DNA of 64,000 nucleotides. Source: Candidatus Woesearchaeota archaeon. GTDB lineage: Archaea; Nanobdellota; Nanobdellia; Woesearchaeales; B29-G15. Numbering within the stretch: the stretch's first letter is position 1; each line of letters begins with the position of its first letter. This document shows positions 35,490-46,036 of the stretch, in pieces. The stretch spans positions 21,414 through 85,413 of the forward strand of contig JAFCCU010000007.1 of NCBI GenBank assembly GCA_017610005.1, written 5' to 3'. Made by a program: the position numbers and the translations under genes. A model generated the notes under the pieces. It ran no database searches. It was not told where the DNA came from and saw nothing but the letters and a program-made list of their open reading frames with translations.

Positions 35490-36362
35490 ATGGATTTAAA
35501 ATTATTTTTTAGAAGCGCTTCAATTGTTTTAAATTCAGACTGTAATACTAATTGTGTCTTCTGTTTTTTCCATTCAGATAATGTTAAGCATCCAAAAAAC
35601 GAACAAATTTCTAAGGAATTTTTTGAAAAATTAATCCAGCGGCTAGATAATTTCAAACCAAATTTAAAAATACATAGTGATGGAGAACCATTAAAACATC
35701 CACAGTTATGGGAATTTATTAATTTTGCAAGAGATAAAGTTAGTTCAATTGAAGTTTTAACTAATTTAAGAGAAAAAAATATTGTTAATAATATTTTGCA
35801 AGGGGAGGTAGATGCGTTACTTATTAATCTTCCAGCTGCAAATAATGAAGATTATATTAAACATAGGCCTGGAGACACTGAAGGCTTTGATATTGTATTA
35901 AATAATTTAAAAGAGTTAAAATCAAAAAAACTTTCTATTAATCCTTTAGTAATTCTTTCACAGGTTTTAACAAAATATAACTCTGATCAAAAATCCCTTG
36001 AGGATTACATTGATTTAGCCAAATCTCTTGGAGCATTTAAAATCAAATTTACTAAAATGATTGGAGTTAAAAGAACAGAAAATTTAATTCCCTCAAGCCC
36101 TCCAAATAAACAATTAAGAGATGCTTTAATTGAAAGGGGAGAAACTATGAGGGTGGAATTTGATGAATTTCCCGTCTCCAGTAATCCCAGAACAGAATGC
36201 TCAATGACTGCAATGGTCAATTTAGATGAAACAATTTCTTATTGCTGTAAGTTAAGAGATGTAAAACTCGAAAAATTCTTCTCATCAGATAAAGAATTAG
36301 CTGAAGAAATCAAAATACTTTCAAAAAAACACAAAGATAGACTATGCGAAGATTGCATGTGA
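35490..36362 (+). CDS. radical SAM protein with C-terminal Cys cluster
   Basis: CNTNCVFCFF (CxxxCxxC); C-terminal CSMTAMVNLDETISYCCKL...CEDCM. Confidence 0.85.
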   Translation: MDLKLFFRSASIVLNSDCNTNCVFCFFHSDNVKHPKNEQISKEFFEKLIQRLDNFKPNLKIHSDGEPLKHPQLWEFINFARDKVSSIEVLTNLREKNIVNNILQGEVDALLINLPAANNEDYIKHRPGDTEGFDIVLNNLKELKSKKLSINPLVILSQVLTKYNSDQKSLEDYIDLAKSLGAFKIKFTKMIGVKRTENLIPSSPPNKQLRDALIERGETMRVEFDEFPVSSNPRTECSMTAMVNLDETISYCCKLRDVKLEKFFSSDKELAEEIKILSKKHKDRLCEDCM

Positions 36363-36706: not shown

Positions 36707-36789
36707 TCTAATTTCAGATCGCTATATTTGATTTAAGAAACGGTGTTTTTCACTTCAGACTTCTTACTTCAGACTTCATACTAAGAAAT

Positions 36790-36889
36790 GGGCCCGCTGA
36801 GATTTGAACTCAGGACCACTCGATTTCTAAAGGTTATTTTTACAACCAATATATCAGTCGAGCGCTCTACCAGACTAAGCCACGGGCCC
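36790..36889 (-). tRNA. tRNA-Ile (GAT) with 26-nt intron at 37/38 (intron approximately 36826-36851)
   Basis: Reverse complement GGGCCCGTGGCTTAGTCTGGTAGAGCGCTCGACTGATA[intron]ATCGAGTGGTCCTGAGTTCAAATCTCAGCGGGCCCA; CTCGA/TCGAG anticodon stem. Confidence 0.93.
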
Positions 36890-36965
36890 GTGGGTAGAAT
36901 GGAGTTATAAACTATTTATAAAGGTTACTGTAACATTTTTATAATAATTAAACTTTACAAATGAA

Positions 36966-38099: not shown

Positions 38100-38458
38100 A
38101 TCAAAAGAAGACAAAAGAGAAGGTATTATCGTTTTTACTTGTCTTTTTGATATTACTTGTACCGATATCTATCTTAACTTCACCCAAAGAATCTAATGTT
38201 GTAATTACGGGCCTTTACACTGAAGAGTTTAATAAGTCTGCTCAACTGGTATCTTTCAGGGTTAAAAGTAATTCTGAATCAGATCTTCATTGCAAACTTA
38301 GAATTGAATTGTTTAGGCAGAAAGTGATGGTTGATAAGTTTTTCAAGGAGGTTGGTTTTATCCCTTCAATGGGGATCGTAGAAAAAGAAATGATTTTAAG
38401 AGCGCCCTCTGGAGAAAACGATTTTTTACTTACTCCTGAATGCTGGTCAGTTAATTAA
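38084..38458 (+). CDS. hypothetical membrane-anchored protein
   Basis: N-terminal TM VLSFLLVFLILLVPISIL. Confidence 0.65.
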   Translation: MESLLNQKKTKEKVLSFLLVFLILLVPISILTSPKESNVVITGLYTEEFNKSAQLVSFRVKSNSESDLHCKLRIELFRQKVMVDKFFKEVGFIPSMGIVEKEMILRAPSGENDFLLTPECWSVN

Positions 38459-39622
38459 GGGGTCTTTCCCGTAAATTTCAGCAATTGCTTTTGATCCCCC
38501 CCTACATCTTAGGAGGAGTTTACATTTTTCACATTTTTTAGGTACATTTGATAAGTTTCTTAATTGTCTCCATTCTTCACTATTCCATGCGTTATAAAGA
38601 GATTTAATATCCCCATAGGTTTTAGGAGAGTAGTAGCTAGGTTTTATTTTTCCATTAGTTGACACTACCATTCTGTTTGCCCCATCATCATAAACTCCCC
38701 CGCAAGATATCAATGTTAATTTTTCATTAAGGCAAAGGGGGATTGCATTGGCAATTTTAAATCCTTTACCGTATAATAAATTTAATCTAAAGATTTCTTC
38801 AATTGCAAATTTTAAATCTGGGTTAGCAACATTCATTGGTCTATAAAACTCAAGTAAGTATTTATCAGAATAAAGTTTGTAATATTCTTCAAGTTTTTTG
38901 ATATTCTCATTTGTTAAGACTATCCCCCCCCTAAGGACCTTTACACCTTCTAATTCGGGGGTACTGTTGCCATGAAATGAGATTAAAACATTATCAATAT
39001 TCTTTTTTATAAATTCCCCCATTTTTTGATCAATTAATGTGCCATTAGTATTAAGCCACACATGAAAACCAACTTTCTTTGCAAAATTTACCATTTCAAT
39101 AAAATCTGGATGAAGTAGGGGTTCGCCACCTGTAAATCTAATAAAATTAACATTCATTTCTTTTGTTTGCAAAATGATATTTTTAATTACATTTAGTGGA
39201 AGATTCTTCCTTTCTTGTCTTTTATCTAAATTGTAGGAGTATTTATTAAAGCAAAATTCACAGTTTAAATTACAGTTATCAGTTACTTCAATTACTACTT
39301 CTTTGGGAATATCTGGGATACTTTTTACAAGATGCTCAGATTCTTTGAAAAAACCATTACAATGCAAATTAAATTTACAAGAGAAACATTCTTTATTTTT
39401 AATTTTCTCTTTACATGGCGTATTGTCTAATAAGAAAAAATGGCTCTCAAACAGACACATTGGAAGTTTAGGGAATTTTAAATTAATTAGATGAGAATAT
39501 TGGGTAATTTGAAAGAGGTAGCTTATGAATTCTGATTTTTTTAAAGATGTATTTAGGTTTATTGTAATATCTTTTCCCCCTGCTGCATAAGATTTTTTAA
39601 ATATTGAAGAAAAATCTTCCAT
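38447..39622 (-). CDS. radical SAM/SPASM maturase (HxsC-like candidate)
   Basis: CNLNCEFCF; FTGGEPLLHPDF; SPASM-like CGGVYDDGANRMVVSTNGKIKPSYYSPKTYGDIKSLYNAW...CEKCKLLLRCRGG; located beside HxsB/HxsD-like genes. Confidence 0.8.
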   Translation of the reverse strand: MEDFSSIFKKSYAAGGKDITINLNTSLKKSEFISYLFQITQYSHLINLKFPKLPMCLFESHFFLLDNTPCKEKIKNKECFSCKFNLHCNGFFKESEHLVKSIPDIPKEVVIEVTDNCNLNCEFCFNKYSYNLDKRQERKNLPLNVIKNIILQTKEMNVNFIRFTGGEPLLHPDFIEMVNFAKKVGFHVWLNTNGTLIDQKMGEFIKKNIDNVLISFHGNSTPELEGVKVLRGGIVLTNENIKKLEEYYKLYSDKYLLEFYRPMNVANPDLKFAIEEIFRLNLLYGKGFKIANAIPLCLNEKLTLISCGGVYDDGANRMVVSTNGKIKPSYYSPKTYGDIKSLYNAWNSEEWRQLRNLSNVPKKCEKCKLLLRCRGGSKAIAEIYGKDPLIN

Positions 39623-39658: not shown

Positions 39659-39997
39659 TTAATAGCTAGAATGATGAACAACCATGTTCCCTGAGGCAGT
39701 ATAAGAGATTGTGACATTACCTAACTCTGTCTCATAAAATTTTTCTTTTATTACTGTGTCAGAACCCATAGTCGTTTCGGGAGATTGAATTGCTTTACTA
39801 AATCCTATTGGGTAAATTCTTCCCTTAACAGCTTTTAGAGAAATTGCAGCCCCGATTGCAGCCCCGCCAACAATCGACCCCACAGTTAATGCACTTTGTT
39901 TAGAGATCTGACCGCGTTCACCCTTCACAAAAGAGTTAATATCTTTTCTTAATTTAGGTAGAACTCCTTTCTTTTTTATTCCTCTTTTTGATTTCAA
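39659..39997 (-). CDS. candidate RiPP precursor (HxsA-like, C-terminal VVHHSSY)
   Basis: 112 aa; LRKDINSFVKGERGQISKQSALTVGSIVGGAAIGAA...; overlapping H-x-S tripeptides HHS and HSS at C-terminus; between the two rSAM maturases. Confidence 0.65.
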   Translation of the reverse strand: MKSKRGIKKKGVLPKLRKDINSFVKGERGQISKQSALTVGSIVGGAAIGAAISLKAVKGRIYPIGFSKAIQSPETTMGSDTVIKEKFYETELGNVTISYTASGNMVVHHSSY

Positions 39998-40031: not shown

Positions 40032-41354
40032 TTATAAATCTTTTGTTTCAGCCCATTTAAGGAACATCTTTTCGTATGATTTTTCTGAAAAAAATTTCTC
40101 AAAGAGGAATTCAAATTGGGCCATAACAACCTTACAATCAAAATTACCGATTTTAGGAATTGGAGAACCTGTTTCTGCAAAACTTGCTACCGGGCACACC
40201 CCGCAAAATGGTTTAAACGCGCATCTTTTGCAAAAAAGAAGTTCATTTTGAGAGCACTTAATAATTCCTTTTCCTGAATGGATTATATCTTTATAATCTT
40301 CTACTACATTGCCTAACTTAAAGACATCATCTTCAATCATCCTGCCTTCATCACATGTGTAAACATCTCCATTGTATTCATAAGCAAGTTGAGATATAAC
40401 TGCCCCACAAGGGCTTTCTAAATCAGTAAAAAGAGGATTCTCATTTAAAATTGCTTTTTTTATAAGAATAGTAGTATACACTTCACTTATTTTTTCATTT
40501 ATTAAAAGATTAATTAGTTCTTTCCAAAATTCAATATACCTCTCGGGAGAGACTTTTTCATCCTTGCCCTTTCCAATTGCCCTAACTGGCTTAACCCAAA
40601 TGCGGCTAAATCCGAACTTTTTATACTCTCTAATAATTTCTTTTGGGTATTTTAAAGAATCTTTTGAAATCACAGCAATTGCAGAAAGATTTTGTCTCAT
40701 CCTTTTTTGAATAATCGGAATCCATTTTTTTAAGGCATCGTAGCTTCCCGGTCTATTTTTTTCTTGCAATTCTCTTGGACCATCAAGGGAAGTGCAAAGC
40801 CAGACTCTATTTTTTACTAGGAAATCCAGTTTTTCATTGGTAAGCGCAGTCAAATTACTAACCATTGTAAATTGAATTTCTTTATCTGTTTCCCTTGCTT
40901 TTTTTATTGCATAATTAACAATATACTTAACAATCTTAAAATTTAAAAGTGGTTCTCCTCCTTGAAATTCAATTTTTAAATTCTTTTTTGGACTTTTGAA
41001 AATAAAATCAACAACATTTTTCGCAGTTTTCTCAGTCATATCAAATTCATTTGTATTAACTATTGGTGCCTGGCAATATTTGCAAAGAAGATTACACCTT
41101 CTTGTGGGTACTACTATATGGAGGCTTGGGCCAATAAATATTTGAGCTTTGTTTCTTCTGTAGTTTCTGATTATGCTTTCTTTATTTGCATTAGTTACAA
41201 TTATCCCATTTTCTTCTAGAATCTGATGAAGTTTTTTAGTATATTTTTTTGTTTTAAACAACAGATAGTCAGATTTATTTAAGATTACATAGGACCCAGC
41301 ATCATTTGTTATTAGATAACTATTTCCAATCCGTTTGACCCTTGCATTAAACAT
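40032..41354 (-). CDS. radical SAM/SPASM maturase, HxsB-like
   Basis: RRCNLLCKYCQ; IEFQGGEPLLNF; SLDGPRELQEKNRPG; CGAVISQLAYEYNGDVYTCDEGRM...CSQNELLFCKRCAFKPFCGVCPV. Confidence 0.82.
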   Translation of the reverse strand: MFNARVKRIGNSYLITNDAGSYVILNKSDYLLFKTKKYTKKLHQILEENGIIVTNANKESIIRNYRRNKAQIFIGPSLHIVVPTRRCNLLCKYCQAPIVNTNEFDMTEKTAKNVVDFIFKSPKKNLKIEFQGGEPLLNFKIVKYIVNYAIKKARETDKEIQFTMVSNLTALTNEKLDFLVKNRVWLCTSLDGPRELQEKNRPGSYDALKKWIPIIQKRMRQNLSAIAVISKDSLKYPKEIIREYKKFGFSRIWVKPVRAIGKGKDEKVSPERYIEFWKELINLLINEKISEVYTTILIKKAILNENPLFTDLESPCGAVISQLAYEYNGDVYTCDEGRMIEDDVFKLGNVVEDYKDIIHSGKGIIKCSQNELLFCKRCAFKPFCGVCPVASFAETGSPIPKIGNFDCKVVMAQFEFLFEKFFSEKSYEKMFLKWAETKDL

Positions 41355-41589
41355 TCTGCATAATCCCTAAACAATAATTAAAGAATTCAAGTCCTAATTC
41401 AGTTAAGTCAAATCCTTCATCTTTTGGAGTCATTGTAATTATATACTCTCCTTTGTCCAAATCTAAATTAATAAAAGTAGATTCAGAAAAAGCTTCGCTT
41501 GCAAGAAGTATTGCTTTTTTTAAATAAATTTCAGAATTAAGATAGAGAGTTACAACATTATTTTTATGATCCACATTAATGTTTTTCAT
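41347..41589 (-). CDS. divergent HxsD-like small protein
   Basis: VTLYLNSEIYLKKAILLASEAFSESTFINLDLDKGEYIITMTPKDEG aligns by eye to the neighbouring HxsD-like protein. Confidence 0.6.
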   Translation of the reverse strand: MKNINVDHKNNVVTLYLNSEIYLKKAILLASEAFSESTFINLDLDKGEYIITMTPKDEGFDLTELGLEFFNYCLGIMQNV

Positions 41590-41896
41590 CTTCTTCACAG
41601 CTTGATAATGCAGTCTTAATTAATGCGTCAGATATCTCTTGTTGTTTTTTTGATTCCATCGTGTATACTTGAGATGAAATCAATTCATTTCCAAATTCCA
41701 ATGCAAGGCTGTTTACATCTCCCTTGCCTTTTGGTTTAATTGTTACAGTTATTTTACTATCTGGGTCTCCACTTAAGATAACATAGGCTTTATCAGTCAT
41801 TGTGTAGGCTGCATTTAACACTGCCTCAAGAGAATATAGCTCTGGATTAACAAAAAACTCTGCAAAATCATCATATAATTTAACATTCTCAACCAT
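41576..41896 (-). CDS. HxsD-like small protein
   Basis: VNPELYSLEAVLNAAYTMTDKAYVILSGDPDSKITVTIKPKGKGDVNSLALEFGNELISSQVY pattern of HxsD. Confidence 0.7.
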   Translation of the reverse strand: MVENVKLYDDFAEFFVNPELYSLEAVLNAAYTMTDKAYVILSGDPDSKITVTIKPKGKGDVNSLALEFGNELISSQVYTMESKKQQEISDALIKTALSSCEEDEKH

Positions 41897-41927
41897 TAAA
41901 AACCCCAAGCGAGAATAACTTAAATTG

Positions 41928-43028
41928 TTATATAAAGCTTTCTATAAGGGCCCTAAATAAGATTATAATATCTGCTCCAAAAATTACTATTAATAAACAT
42001 CCAAAAAACATAAAAGGTGCAAAAGGCAATGCTTCAAAAACTCTTATTTTATCTTCTTTTAAAAAACCTTTATTGTGAATTGATTTAATTTTTTTAATAT
42101 CTTTTTTAGTCATTCCATCTCCGACATAAGAAAAAACTGAATTAAAAGCACCCTTAATCATCATAGCGCCAATCAATGAGAATCTTAAAAAAGTTCTTTT
42201 CTCAAAGCAGTCTGGCCGTGTTTGTATGATATCTTCTGCAGGGATCATGCCTTCTTTAATTTCAGAAATTTTAATCTCTTTTGAAAATAACTCATAAGAA
42301 ATTCCGATTAAATAAAATCTTAGAGCAAGAAATGTTAAAAGCATTAATGCAAAATTATACAGGGAGTGTAGGGAAAAAGCTGTTGTTCCTTGGACAAAAA
42401 CCCTCACTATACAGATTACAAACCCCACAGAAATTGCTTTGAGTTTTAATCCTTTGTTTAATAAAAAAAGGAAAAGAAACATAAAAGTTATACCAATAAA
42501 AAAGTTACTTGGAATCTTTAATGCTTTCAATATAATCTCAATAATCCACCCAAATCCAAATATAAACAGTGAAAGAGTAACTAATATTCTTAATGATAAT
42601 ACATTTAGAAGAAAGCTTCCAATTCTTTTTGGTCCAGCTTTAAATGGAATATAAATTATGTAAAATACTAAAAGGGGAACAAATGTGTTAACAAGTATTG
42701 AAAATGATGGAAAATAAGAAATATATGAAACTTTGTAAACAATTGGGAATATGATAAAAGAATAAGCGATAAAAAGCTTTGCATCTCCAGCACTCCAAAG
42801 GCCAACATACCAAAGCATATACCCAAATGCAATTGATATTAAAGCATTTATCACATAGTTTGATGTAAATGCGAAACTAAAATTTAAAGAATAAGTTAAT
42901 GCAAAAATTGCCCCAAAAATAATACCTAGTAGAATCCATTTATTTCTAACAATCTTATATTTAAAGTCCTCATATGAAGTAATAACACCAAAAATAATTA
43001 AGAATGTGAGTATTAGATAATTTACCAT
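41928..43028 (-). CDS. archaeal prepilin/preflagellin peptidase (A24, FlaK/PibD-like)
   Basis: Multi-TM; SYEDFKYKIVRNKWI; WSAGDAKLFIAYS; SYVGDGMTKKDI. Confidence 0.88.
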   Translation of the reverse strand: MVNYLILTFLIIFGVITSYEDFKYKIVRNKWILLGIIFGAIFALTYSLNFSFAFTSNYVINALISIAFGYMLWYVGLWSAGDAKLFIAYSFIIFPIVYKVSYISYFPSFSILVNTFVPLLVFYIIYIPFKAGPKRIGSFLLNVLSLRILVTLSLFIFGFGWIIEIILKALKIPSNFFIGITFMFLFLFLLNKGLKLKAISVGFVICIVRVFVQGTTAFSLHSLYNFALMLLTFLALRFYLIGISYELFSKEIKISEIKEGMIPAEDIIQTRPDCFEKRTFLRFSLIGAMMIKGAFNSVFSYVGDGMTKKDIKKIKSIHNKGFLKEDKIRVFEALPFAPFMFFGCLLIVIFGADIIILFRALIESFI

Positions 43029-43030
43029 TT

Positions 43031-43417
43031 TTATGTGCTGTTACAGGGAGTTCCATTGATTAATACCTTACTACTCCCAATCCCCACCATCTCTCCTAGT
43101 TCATCTAAAAATACTAAATTATCATTTTCATCAACAAAATATATACAAAAGTCGCTTGAAATTCCAGTGAAGTTTTTTAGGCTTTCATAGCCTTCATCGT
43201 TTAATGTTTCAAGTAATGCCGGATCAATTTTCCTTTCATTAATTACATTTAACTTATCTCGGAGGGCTGAAAAAAGTTCTTCTCCCTCTTGCTTTAAATT
43301 TGCCATATCAGAATTATGGGTTTGAGAAACTGAAAAAGCTATAACACTTATAATAATCATTACAAATAAAAATACACCAACCATCGCATCAATTGACCAC
43401 GCTTGACCTTTTTTCAT
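43031..43417 (-). CDS. pilin-like protein with class III signal peptide
   Basis: MKKGQAWSIDAMVGVFLFVMIIISVIAFSV. Confidence 0.75.
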   Translation of the reverse strand: MKKGQAWSIDAMVGVFLFVMIIISVIAFSVSQTHNSDMANLKQEGEELFSALRDKLNVINERKIDPALLETLNDEGYESLKNFTGISSDFCIYFVDENDNLVFLDELGEMVGIGSSKVLINGTPCNST

Positions 43418-43421
43418 TTTA

Positions 43422-43895
43422 TCATCCAGTTATTACTGGTTTTGTAATGCACGAAATTTTTACTTCTTCTATTGTTTTTTCAATAAGATTTTGAATATCT
43501 GGTCCAACACAAATTTCACCAGTAACATTTGCGGACACCAGCAAAACACTTGAAATATACTTGCTTGATTCGTTTGCAAGGATTATTATTTCTGCTTTAA
43601 CATCTCTTGCTGTTGGATTAATCTTTCTTAATTCTGAAGAGTTTATAAGTGTTACGTTGTAAATTAAATTCCCAGCATAAACTGGCAAGGAAAAATTTCT
43701 TCTGTACCCAGGAGATACTTGTTCTGCAAGTTCAATTTCTTTTTCTAATATATTTTTAATTATCAAAAATGCCCCTTGTTCTCTTTCTGTTTGTGTATCC
43801 TTATTTTTTACAGCAAATACCCCCATAAATACCACTAATACAAAAACCATAAAAGTAATCATTAAAGATGCTTCAATACTTGTTTGGGCTTTCAT
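43422..43895 (-). CDS. pilin-like protein
   Basis: MKAQTSIEASLMITFMVFVLVVFMGVFAV. Confidence 0.75.
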   Translation of the reverse strand: MKAQTSIEASLMITFMVFVLVVFMGVFAVKNKDTQTEREQGAFLIIKNILEKEIELAEQVSPGYRRNFSLPVYAGNLIYNVTLINSSELRKINPTARDVKAEIIILANESSKYISSVLLVSANVTGEICVGPDIQNLIEKTIEEVKISCITKPVITG

Positions 43896-44344
43896 ATTAT
43901 TTTGACATTGGCATAATGTGTTCCATCTGCACTAATATTTGCTGAGATAATTAAACTTTTAAGGCCCTTGGCAAAACTCAGTTCATCAAATGAACCATTA
44001 ATATTAACATCTGAATCAAAGACTAAAGTTTCATTGCCTCGTTCATTTGCAAAGATAAAAATAAATTGGTTAGCACCTGTAGCCCAATTATTTAAGACAT
44101 AAATATCAACCACATTAGATGGCATATCTGCCCTAAGGGTCATCTTGGCAGGAACTCCTTGATAATAAACTTCATAAGCTGTATTTACAATATCATTTCC
44201 TAACCTATAAAGCTTTGATTCAGTTAATTCATTTGAAGATTTTCTAACATTTGTAAGAAAAATAAAAGTTGTTGGAACAAATATAAGAAGAATTAAGGCA
44301 ACTACTAATAAATATTCCATAGCGGCCTGCCCTCTTTTTTTCAT
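43892..44344 (-). CDS. pilin-like protein with class III signal peptide
   Basis: MKKRGQAAMEYLLVVALILLIFVPTTF. Confidence 0.8.
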   Translation of the reverse strand: MKKRGQAAMEYLLVVALILLIFVPTTFIFLTNVRKSSNELTESKLYRLGNDIVNTAYEVYYQGVPAKMTLRADMPSNVVDIYVLNNWATGANQFIFIFANERGNETLVFDSDVNINGSFDELSFAKGLKSLIISANISADGTHYANVKII

Positions 44345-44374
44345 ATTAGAATAAAAAATAAGTTAGTATATAAA

Positions 44375-44854
44375 TTATTCCACAATGGCCATTAATTCTC
44401 CGCTTGCCGTATGGGTATAATCCGAGCTTGAAGCCACAGAATACCATTCAATCTCAACATCCCACTTGGCCTTGGTATTTGACCCAGCGTATTCTACAGG
44501 GATTAGGCACTTTGATCCTGGAGGTGTGCCCGTTAATTCAAAAGAATGGGATGCACCATTTCGAAGAAGTTCTGGTGTGGGCGAAGAAAAATTACAACTA
44601 ACAGAACCACCAAATGTCCCTGTTGTAGCATTAATTGAAACAATTTTAATGTCAGTTCCTCTCCCATTTTCAAGAGTCATTAAAATTTTACCAACTCCTG
44701 AGGGCGAGGTAACCAAATGATCCTTACAATTAAGCCCCATTTGAACCTGACACTTCTCAGGTAAAAGAGTATTTGGATTTAAAATCCCAAAGTATGCTAA
44801 TGCTCCAATAACCACAAGCACGAATTCCATTGCTGCTTGACCTTTCTTATTCAT
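44375..44854 (-). CDS. archaeal pilin (paralogue 3, shortest N-terminal helix)
   Basis: MNKKGQAAMEFVLVVIGALAYFGILNPNTLLPEKC; C-terminal WYSVASSSDYTHTASGELMAIVE. Confidence 0.85.
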   Translation of the reverse strand: MNKKGQAAMEFVLVVIGALAYFGILNPNTLLPEKCQVQMGLNCKDHLVTSPSGVGKILMTLENGRGTDIKIVSINATTGTFGGSVSCNFSSPTPELLRNGASHSFELTGTPPGSKCLIPVEYAGSNTKAKWDVEIEWYSVASSSDYTHTASGELMAIVE

Positions 44855-44864
44855 TATAATCACC

Positions 44865-45353
44865 TCACTCCACAATCGCCATTAATTCTCCACTGGCTGT
44901 ATGAGTATACTCTGCACCTGTTGCAACAGAATACCATTCAATTTCAATATCCCATTTTAATTTAGTATTGGATCCTGCATAGGCGTAAGTAATGTTGCAC
45001 CACTTTTTATTTGTACCATTTGTTAAGTTAAAAGATTTTGATGCCCCATTTCTTAAGAGAATGGCAGAACTTGGATCTAGGGTACAGTTAACTAAATCTC
45101 CTAAGGAAGTTGTTGATGCAGTAATATTTGCAATTTGGATATCACTCCCTCTCCCATTTTCAAGAGTCATTAAGATTTTACCATCACTATTTGTTTTGGT
45201 TGTAACCAAATGATCCTTACAATTAAGCCCCATTTGAACCTGACACTTCTCAGGTAAAAGAGTATTTGGATTTAAAATCCCAAAGTATGCTAATGCTCCA
45301 ATAACCACAAGCACGATCAGAAATTCCATTGCTGCTTGACCTTTTTTATGCAT
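44865..45353 (-). CDS. archaeal pilin (paralogue 2)
   Basis: MHKKGQAAMEFLIVLVVIGALAYFGILNPNTLLPEKC; C-terminal WYSVATGAEYTHTASGELMAIVE. Confidence 0.85.
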   Translation of the reverse strand: MHKKGQAAMEFLIVLVVIGALAYFGILNPNTLLPEKCQVQMGLNCKDHLVTTKTNSDGKILMTLENGRGSDIQIANITASTTSLGDLVNCTLDPSSAILLRNGASKSFNLTNGTNKKWCNITYAYAGSNTKLKWDIEIEWYSVATGAEYTHTASGELMAIVE

Positions 45354-45400
45354 TGATAATCACCTTTTTAATCTTATTAGTTTTTCTTATTATATAAACT

Positions 45401-45889
45401 TTATTCTATGGAGGCAAGAATTTCTCCACTTGCCGTGTGAGTGTACTCTTTACTTGTAGAGTACCATTTAATATCAAGACCCCAGGCGTATTTTCCAATC
45501 TCTCCAGAATAACTAGATGGAATTTTGCATTTTGCAGTAGAAGAATTTGTTATGTTAAACATAAATCTCTTTCCATTCCTTACTTTTTCTGGGCCAATCC
45601 ATTCACAGTTAGTATTAAGTTCATCAGATGTTGCATTAATGTAAGTAAAGGTAATACCCTCCCCCCTAGAATTAGTTAAAACCAAGAGGATCGTACCATT
45701 ATCCTCTGCGTTAGTTGTTACCACATAATCTTCACAGGCCATTCCTACAGGGGTATTACATTTATTAGGGATAATTTTTTGAGGGTTCATAATCCCCATG
45801 CTAGCGAGTGCACCAATAACAACGAGCACGACTAAGATGGCCCACCCATAAGTCATCAGAAATTCCATTGCTGCTTGGGCCCTTTTCAT
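45401..45889 (-). CDS. archaeal pilin (paralogue 1, full-length N-terminal helix)
   Basis: MKRAQAAMEFLMTYGWAILVVLVVIGALASMGIMNPQKIIPNKC; C-terminal WYSTSKEYTHTASGEILASIE. Confidence 0.85.
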   Translation of the reverse strand: MKRAQAAMEFLMTYGWAILVVLVVIGALASMGIMNPQKIIPNKCNTPVGMACEDYVVTTNAEDNGTILLVLTNSRGEGITFTYINATSDELNTNCEWIGPEKVRNGKRFMFNITNSSTAKCKIPSSYSGEIGKYAWGLDIKWYSTSKEYTHTASGEILASIE

Positions 45890-46036
45890 TATACTCCTCC
45901 ACACAGGGTAGCGTATTTAAAAGTTTCGTTGTAAACGAAAAGATTAGTTTAATGGAGTTTACCTCCCCACCATACAAAATTCTCCAGACTCTAGACTAAC
46001 AATAACCTTTTATACCCATTTATCTTTGACTTTCCA

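Follow-up and report, generated by a model that had tools for sequence, protein, structure and literature searches.

Gene content of the locus

The window analysed here, a stretch of 64,000 nucleotides from a Woesearchaeota contig, carries on one strand, in this order, six pilin-like genes, an A24 peptidase, HxsD, an HxsD-like protein, HxsB, an ORF of 112 amino acids and a second rSAM gene. Several adjacent genes of this run overlap. The 112-residue ORF (positions 39659–39997, minus strand) begins with a TTG codon immediately 3′ of an in-frame TGA; a GGTG precedes this start by about six bases. Its product ends in ...VTISYTASGNMVVHHSSY. The ORF is separated by 34 bases from the rSAM gene before it and by 36 bases from the one after it. 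An initial annotation had read it as an HxsA-type precursor with a reduced core, situated between two maturases and ending in NMVVHHSSY. Coordinates and translation confirmed the terminus and the position between two rSAM genes on the same strand, and the leader-like stretch (LRKDINSFVKGERGQISKQSALTVG) and Gly/Ala-rich hydrophobic segment are present as described. That reading was incomplete, as it missed two HxsD proteins, a dedicated prepilin peptidase paralogue and a pilin operon.

The upstream rSAM gene (40032–41354, minus strand) encodes an rSAM/SPASM maturase of 440 residues, which matches TIGR03978 over its full length (367.1 bits, E = 1.3e-109). This is 3 bits below the model cutoff of 370, a value passed at 24 of 28 related loci, and we count the protein as HxsB. 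The alignment shows that it retains the CxxxCxxC motif (C87, C91 and C94) and the SPASM cysteines. Of 279 genomes of the phylum, 28 have HxsB. At two other loci (L166:6066–7337, minus strand; L168:6393–7625, plus strand) the cassette takes a pseudo-rSAM form, with HxsB-like proteins without CxxxCxxC encoded in the order A24-HxsD-HxsD2-HxsB.

The enzyme on the other side of the ORF (391 residues; 38447–39622, minus strand) is also an rSAM/SPASM protein (PF04055, 72 bits; SPASM, 23 bits). We rejected its identification as HxsC, since none of 25 genomes, that of the window among them, gave a match above the 267.9-bit cutoff of TIGR03977. Of the two flanking maturases, the upstream one therefore stands, and the downstream one is not a recognised Hxs maturase. 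Among 148 genomes of the phylum, its closest match was within the same genus, where congener G001 has a syntenic homologue; the best matches outside the genus were 38–39% identical and located away from Hxs loci. A precursor without an rSAM neighbour, which the initial annotation took as a sign against its reading, was not encountered among the congeners: HxsB and the second rSAM adjoin the precursor in all three. A further rSAM gene on the opposite strand (35490–36362, plus strand) has weak similarity to TIGR04317, and a tRNA-like sequence with an intron in the anticodon loop, not reported by ARAGORN, is present at 36788–36890 (minus strand).

Both HxsD-type proteins score above their model cutoffs. 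HxsD1 (110 residues; 41576–41908, minus strand, with a possible alternative ATG start at 41896) gave 51.3 bits against TIGR03976 (cutoff 50), and the HxsD-like protein HxsD2 (83 residues; 41347–41598, minus strand) gave 49.5 bits against NF038315 (cutoff 41). An AlphaFold model of HxsD1 (pLDDT 88) produced weak matches to Rpb11-like and ferredoxin-like folds (best Foldseek E-value 2.7e-3, best Z 7.2); a PqqD-like winged helix (RiPP recognition element) was not among the matches listed.

Directly upstream of the A24 gene are the six consecutive pilin-like genes, whose translations have class III-type signals (43031–45904, minus strand; genes 1–3 at 43031–43417, 43422–43895 and 43892–44344, genes 4–6 at 44375–44875, 44865–45353 and 45401–45904). 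Four pilin-like genes occupy the equivalent position in congener G002 (L066). A pilin operon directly upstream of A24 was found only in the window's genome (G000) and G002, the G001 contig stopping at A24. Outside the window's genus, a pattern search, which was strict and may miss divergent pilins, found no pilin operons beside Hxs loci, and pilin linkage was therefore rejected as a general Hxs feature.

The leader and its associated peptidase

The N-terminal stretch of the 112-residue protein, PKLRKDINSFVKGERGQISK..LTVG, falls within a family of leaders from HxsA3/HxsA4-type precursors that the present analysis defines and that has members in archaea and bacteria. A profile iterated from the window ORF detected a precursor-like ORF at most HxsB loci of the phylum. 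The named Hxs loci include archaeal MAGs titled Woesearchaeota, Nanoarchaeota and other DPANN groups, and, among bacteria, Patescibacteria, Elusimicrobia, Omnitrophota and others. One contig titled Aminicenantes bacterium (L121, JAFCCF010000004.1) is probably from a mislabelled MAG; it has the same length (37,978) as contig C12 of G044, a genome of the window's archaeal order.

The 76 distinct leaders of precursor-like ORFs could be aligned without gaps around E-x-[GA]. They include one false positive, L062, an unrelated protein that was set aside, as were partial profile matches to unrelated membrane proteins in G072 and G201. The conserved columns are F/Y at −7 (75 of 76), E at −3 (74 of 76), G/A at −1 (75 of 76), K/R at +4 (71 of 76) and G/A/S at +11 (76 of 76), followed by a hydrophobic helix. 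All of these features are found in the window protein, whose conserved leader spans residues 14–40 by the column counts (PKLRKDINSFVKGERGQISKQSALTVG; 39878–39958, minus strand).

The curated HxsA3 model (NF038309) aligned with the leader only (residues 13–43, E = 2.3e-4), at 20.9 bits against a cutoff of 65; the leaders are alike, and we did not file the protein as an HxsA3 member. TIGR03979, the model for His-Xaa-Ser repeat precursors, gave no match to the ORF, which has a single terminal HHSS and no repeat. The 56-residue part after the helix contains two overlapping H-x-[ST] motifs, and at least two such motifs occurred in 4% of 300 composition shuffles. The motif count alone is thus weakly unlikely by composition; this, together with the score below the HxsA3 cutoff, is what might be expected if the ORF encoded an unrelated small membrane protein that ends in HHSSY by chance. 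We regard that explanation as extremely improbable, and it is already contradicted by the leader alignment and the gene order: the leader scores 66 bits against the family profile (of whose 28 rows it is one), the HxsA3 match was obtained with the single sequence, and the gene lies next to HxsB in each of the congeners. The ORF was therefore accepted as Hxs-type because of homology. By sequence, it is a true relative of Hxs rSAM substrates, reduced to a single His-x-Ser-Tyr tail.

Family f9 of the window's order has this leader too, either in front of Gly/Cys-rich cores with Hint-like domains or in fusions that place it behind an HxsD domain. Two such fusions join an HxsD domain and an Hxs leader in a single protein (L177:9064–9651 and L179:5396–7342, both minus strand), the second with three Hint/intein-like modules after the leader. 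At L176:7838–8548 and L068:14764–15573 (both minus strand) a Gly/Cys-rich or Asp/Thr-rich stretch and then a Hint-like domain come after the leader, in place of His-x-Ser repeats. The HxsD-leader fusions, found in two genera, suggest that HxsD contacts or binds the leader.

The first gene of the Hxs cassette encodes an A24 prepilin peptidase paralogue of 366 residues (41928–43028, minus strand; PF01478, 33.7 bits, cutoff 26.5; PF06819, 32.3 bits, cutoff 23.4). Both catalytic aspartates, D21 and D82 (in GD82), are retained in the alignment. Hxs-linked A24 proteins are 355–400 residues long at most loci, nearly all have both aspartates, and no NCBIfam model matched them above cutoff. A second, canonical A24 is encoded elsewhere in the window's genome, and most of the Hxs-positive genomes checked likewise have a canonical enzyme of about 280–305 residues away from the cassette. 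In the window's order, A24 is within 6 kb of HxsB at 27 of 34 loci and, at 21, immediately precedes HxsD in the same orientation; the corresponding figures for the named archaeal loci, a set that overlaps the first, are 28 of 36 and 22. A24-like genes are present at about 10 of 43 bacterial Hxs loci and never directly upstream of HxsD; among those checked, L106 (28.5 bits) and L155 (41.9 bits) pass the Pfam cutoff of 26.5, and four others are below it.

The A24 paralogue was found in all 26 leader-bearing genomes and in 6 of the 253 others (n = 279; p about 3e-31, an optimistic value as genomes were treated as independent), the partial leader matches in G072 and G201 being left out of the count. 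The link with HxsB is looser (21 of the 26, and 7 of the 253). Five leader-bearing genomes lack a strong HxsB match, and the leader-A24 pair is therefore not confined to His-x-Ser cores. In f9 the leader occurs without His-x-Ser cores, and the HxsB-like proteins of two f9 genomes (G211 and G231) lack CxxxCxxC. This sets the roles apart: leader and A24 form the constant pair, and the modifying enzyme varies.

The A24 paralogue thus probably removes the leader of Hxs precursors. Prepilin peptidases cut just before the hydrophobic helix, and AlphaFold and the sequence place such a helix, a predicted membrane anchor, at residues 33–57 of the window protein (39827–39901, minus strand), with N-in/C-out topology predicted by the positive-inside rule. 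A24 cleavage is favoured because the leader site sits just before this helix. Co-occurrence and position make cleavage at E-R-G29|Q30 (codons about 39908–39913) likely, with cleavage after G40, an equally conserved candidate site, as the alternative. The first site reads R-G-Q in G000 and G001, as in the adjacent pilins, and mostly E-G-K elsewhere; R-G-Q was found only in the window's genus. Glu at +5 is a hallmark of pilins. The window protein has R28-G29-Q30 and the helix but Gln34 at +5, and so does not have the class III signal of type IV pilins. Throughout the family, Glu is found at +5 in 17 of 76 leaders and is thus not conserved, and −2 is acidic in most members, unlike archaeal prepilin sites; a strict archaeal prepilin or class III signal was rejected as a family rule.

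In many relatives the helix is followed by an A-x-A-like motif, compatible with signal peptidase. The HxsB-modified precursor could accordingly be cut by signal peptidase or another protease, with A24 serving the pilins or another substrate and being merely co-inherited, as the pilin genes directly upstream of A24 in the window's genus might suggest. We consider this unlikely. A clean A-x-A is missing from the window protein and its congeners, the pattern search found no pilin operons near the A24 paralogue outside the window's genus, and most Hxs-positive genomes have their separate canonical prepilin peptidase. The paralogue, moreover, tracks the leader in every leader-bearing genome, including the five without a strong HxsB match.

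The C-terminal tail

The protein terminates in HHSSY (H108–Y112; 39662–39676, minus strand), which alignment and motif counts define as a reduced core of one H-x-S-Y unit. Most relatives have H-x-S repeats at the C-terminus, with H-x-S-[Y/W] as the commonest final unit, and the terminus HSSY is common to the window ORF, L054, L069, L070, L073, L079 and L090. Counts were made on precursor-like ORFs of up to 300 residues, 70 with the false positive L062 and 69 without it. The last residue was W, Y or F in 41 of 70, and an aromatic residue was within the last three positions in 55 of 70. The number of H-x-[ST] motifs per ORF ranged from 0 to 54, and 19 of 70 (18 of 69 without L062) had two or fewer, so that the repeats, which the initial annotation took as the rule for substrates, are usual and not universal. 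In the precursors at L060:3203–3868 (minus strand) and L061:7733–8230 (plus strand), H-x-T repeats (HSTHGTHTTH) replace H-x-S. At L064:6161–9091 (plus strand), a precursor-like ORF of 977 residues with long repeats around HSNC/HDNC and TYPDT adjoins an A24 gene.

The orthologue alignment proposed by the initial annotation showed a spacer that varies and a final H-x-S-[Y/W] unit that is kept; in an alignment of 20 sequences, the core region had a single invariant residue, H109, the last His. The orthologues thus support the reading as an Hxs-type precursor whose core is reduced, through the conserved leader, the HxsB and HxsD neighbours and the terminal unit. Orthologues without a C-terminal H-x-S, which had been expected to speak against this reading, were found in one of two congeners: the G001 precursor ends in THSHHVSY, and that of G002 in VTHEHSTTSSSSSTSSTSTSY (HEHST...TSY), where H-x-T occurs once and H-x-S is absent. 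The L070 precursor ends in VTHSHHGSHGNHSSY, and we therefore infer, as the simplest history, that repeats were lost within the window's genus and the terminal unit was kept in two of its three species.

The absence of repeats from all three congeners, and of H-x-S from one, could also mean that the precursor has decayed, losing its modification along with the repeats and persisting as a pilin-like membrane protein. This seems to us quite improbable, as the congener leaders are 61–73% identical, the active-site cysteines of the maturase are intact, and the six-gene cassette is kept in G002 and, up to the contig limit, in G001. The terminal His and Tyr of the window protein also fit the family pattern. 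A low-confidence AlphaFold model of the precursor (pLDDT 65, pTM 0.29) has helices at residues 16–24 and 33–57 and ends in three strands, the last of which contains HHSS, no more than a hint of a three-stranded C-terminal sheet.

Proposed pathway and relation to known systems

We think it rather probable that the locus encodes an Hxs-type precursor matured by HxsD and HxsB, freed of its leader by A24 and presented as a surface-anchored modified peptide. Membership of the leader family, the cassette, the co-occurrence and the reduced core are direct observations from sequence. In the proposed precursor, a recognition leader in the cytosol would be followed by a single transmembrane helix and by an outward C-terminal domain ending in a single H-x-S-Y. 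To judge from gene neighbours and fusions, the HxsD proteins would hold the leader, and HxsB would modify His, Ser or Tyr in the tail ahead of membrane passage, perhaps assisted in the window's genus by the second rSAM. The chain would insert N-in/C-out, and the A24 paralogue would cut off the leader on the cytoplasmic side, with E-R-G29|Q30 as the likeliest site and G40 as the alternative, leaving a membrane-anchored, surface-exposed modified peptide. In the window's genus, where its gene is part of a pilin operon, this product may serve as a minor subunit resembling a pilin. As a tentative extension, the protein might be an rSAM-modified pilin-like subunit, with an HxsB-matured HHSSY and its own prepilin peptidase, assembled in or at the base of a type IV-like pilus from the same operon, and DPANN Hxs precursors might more broadly be released or anchored via the prepilin peptidase route.

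To our knowledge, leader removal by this route is known from no other RiPP. A search of the open-access literature found no description of an Hxs-system product, and nothing relevant linking Hxs to prepilin peptidase or DPANN. The variant described here points to a peptidase that probably removes the leader and to an exactly placed candidate site for the cut, and it has a core of only one unit, whose chemistry should be far easier to read by mass spectrometry than that of repeat-rich precursors. It would link the modification of peptides to their display on the surface of very small archaea that probably depend on a host, for which a standing question is how cells make contact with one another.

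The Hxs system (HxsA, HxsB, HxsC and HxsD; TIGR03979, TIGR03978, TIGR03977 and TIGR03976) was predicted by Haft and Basu (cited in PMC9062424). The window resembles it in having HxsB (367 bits), an HxsD above cutoff and a small His/Ser-tailed precursor beside the maturase, and differs in lacking HxsC and repeats and in having two HxsD-type proteins and an A24 paralogue as a cassette gene. NCBI already curates HxsA3- and HxsA4-type precursors (NF038309, NF038313), and two sister proteins from archaea, L076 and L050, score above the HxsA4 cutoff of 55 bits (59.2 and 65.8 bits, respectively). The window protein has their leader, but reaches 20.9 of the 65 bits set for HxsA3 and has one terminal unit in place of a repeat.

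Like the archaeal A24 enzymes PibD/FlaK and EppA, the window paralogue has PF01478 and PF06819 domains and both catalytic aspartates, and its candidate substrate has a cationic N-terminus, a Gly before the site and then a hydrophobic helix; unlike them, Hxs-linked paralogues are longer (355–400 residues), divergent from the canonical copy and encoded with Hxs genes. With type IV pilins (class III signal), the 112-residue protein has in common R-G-Q, the helix, a three-stranded C-terminal sheet predicted with low confidence, and a pilin operon. It differs from them in Gln34 at +5, a long cationic leader and a His/Ser tail with its own rSAM maturase.
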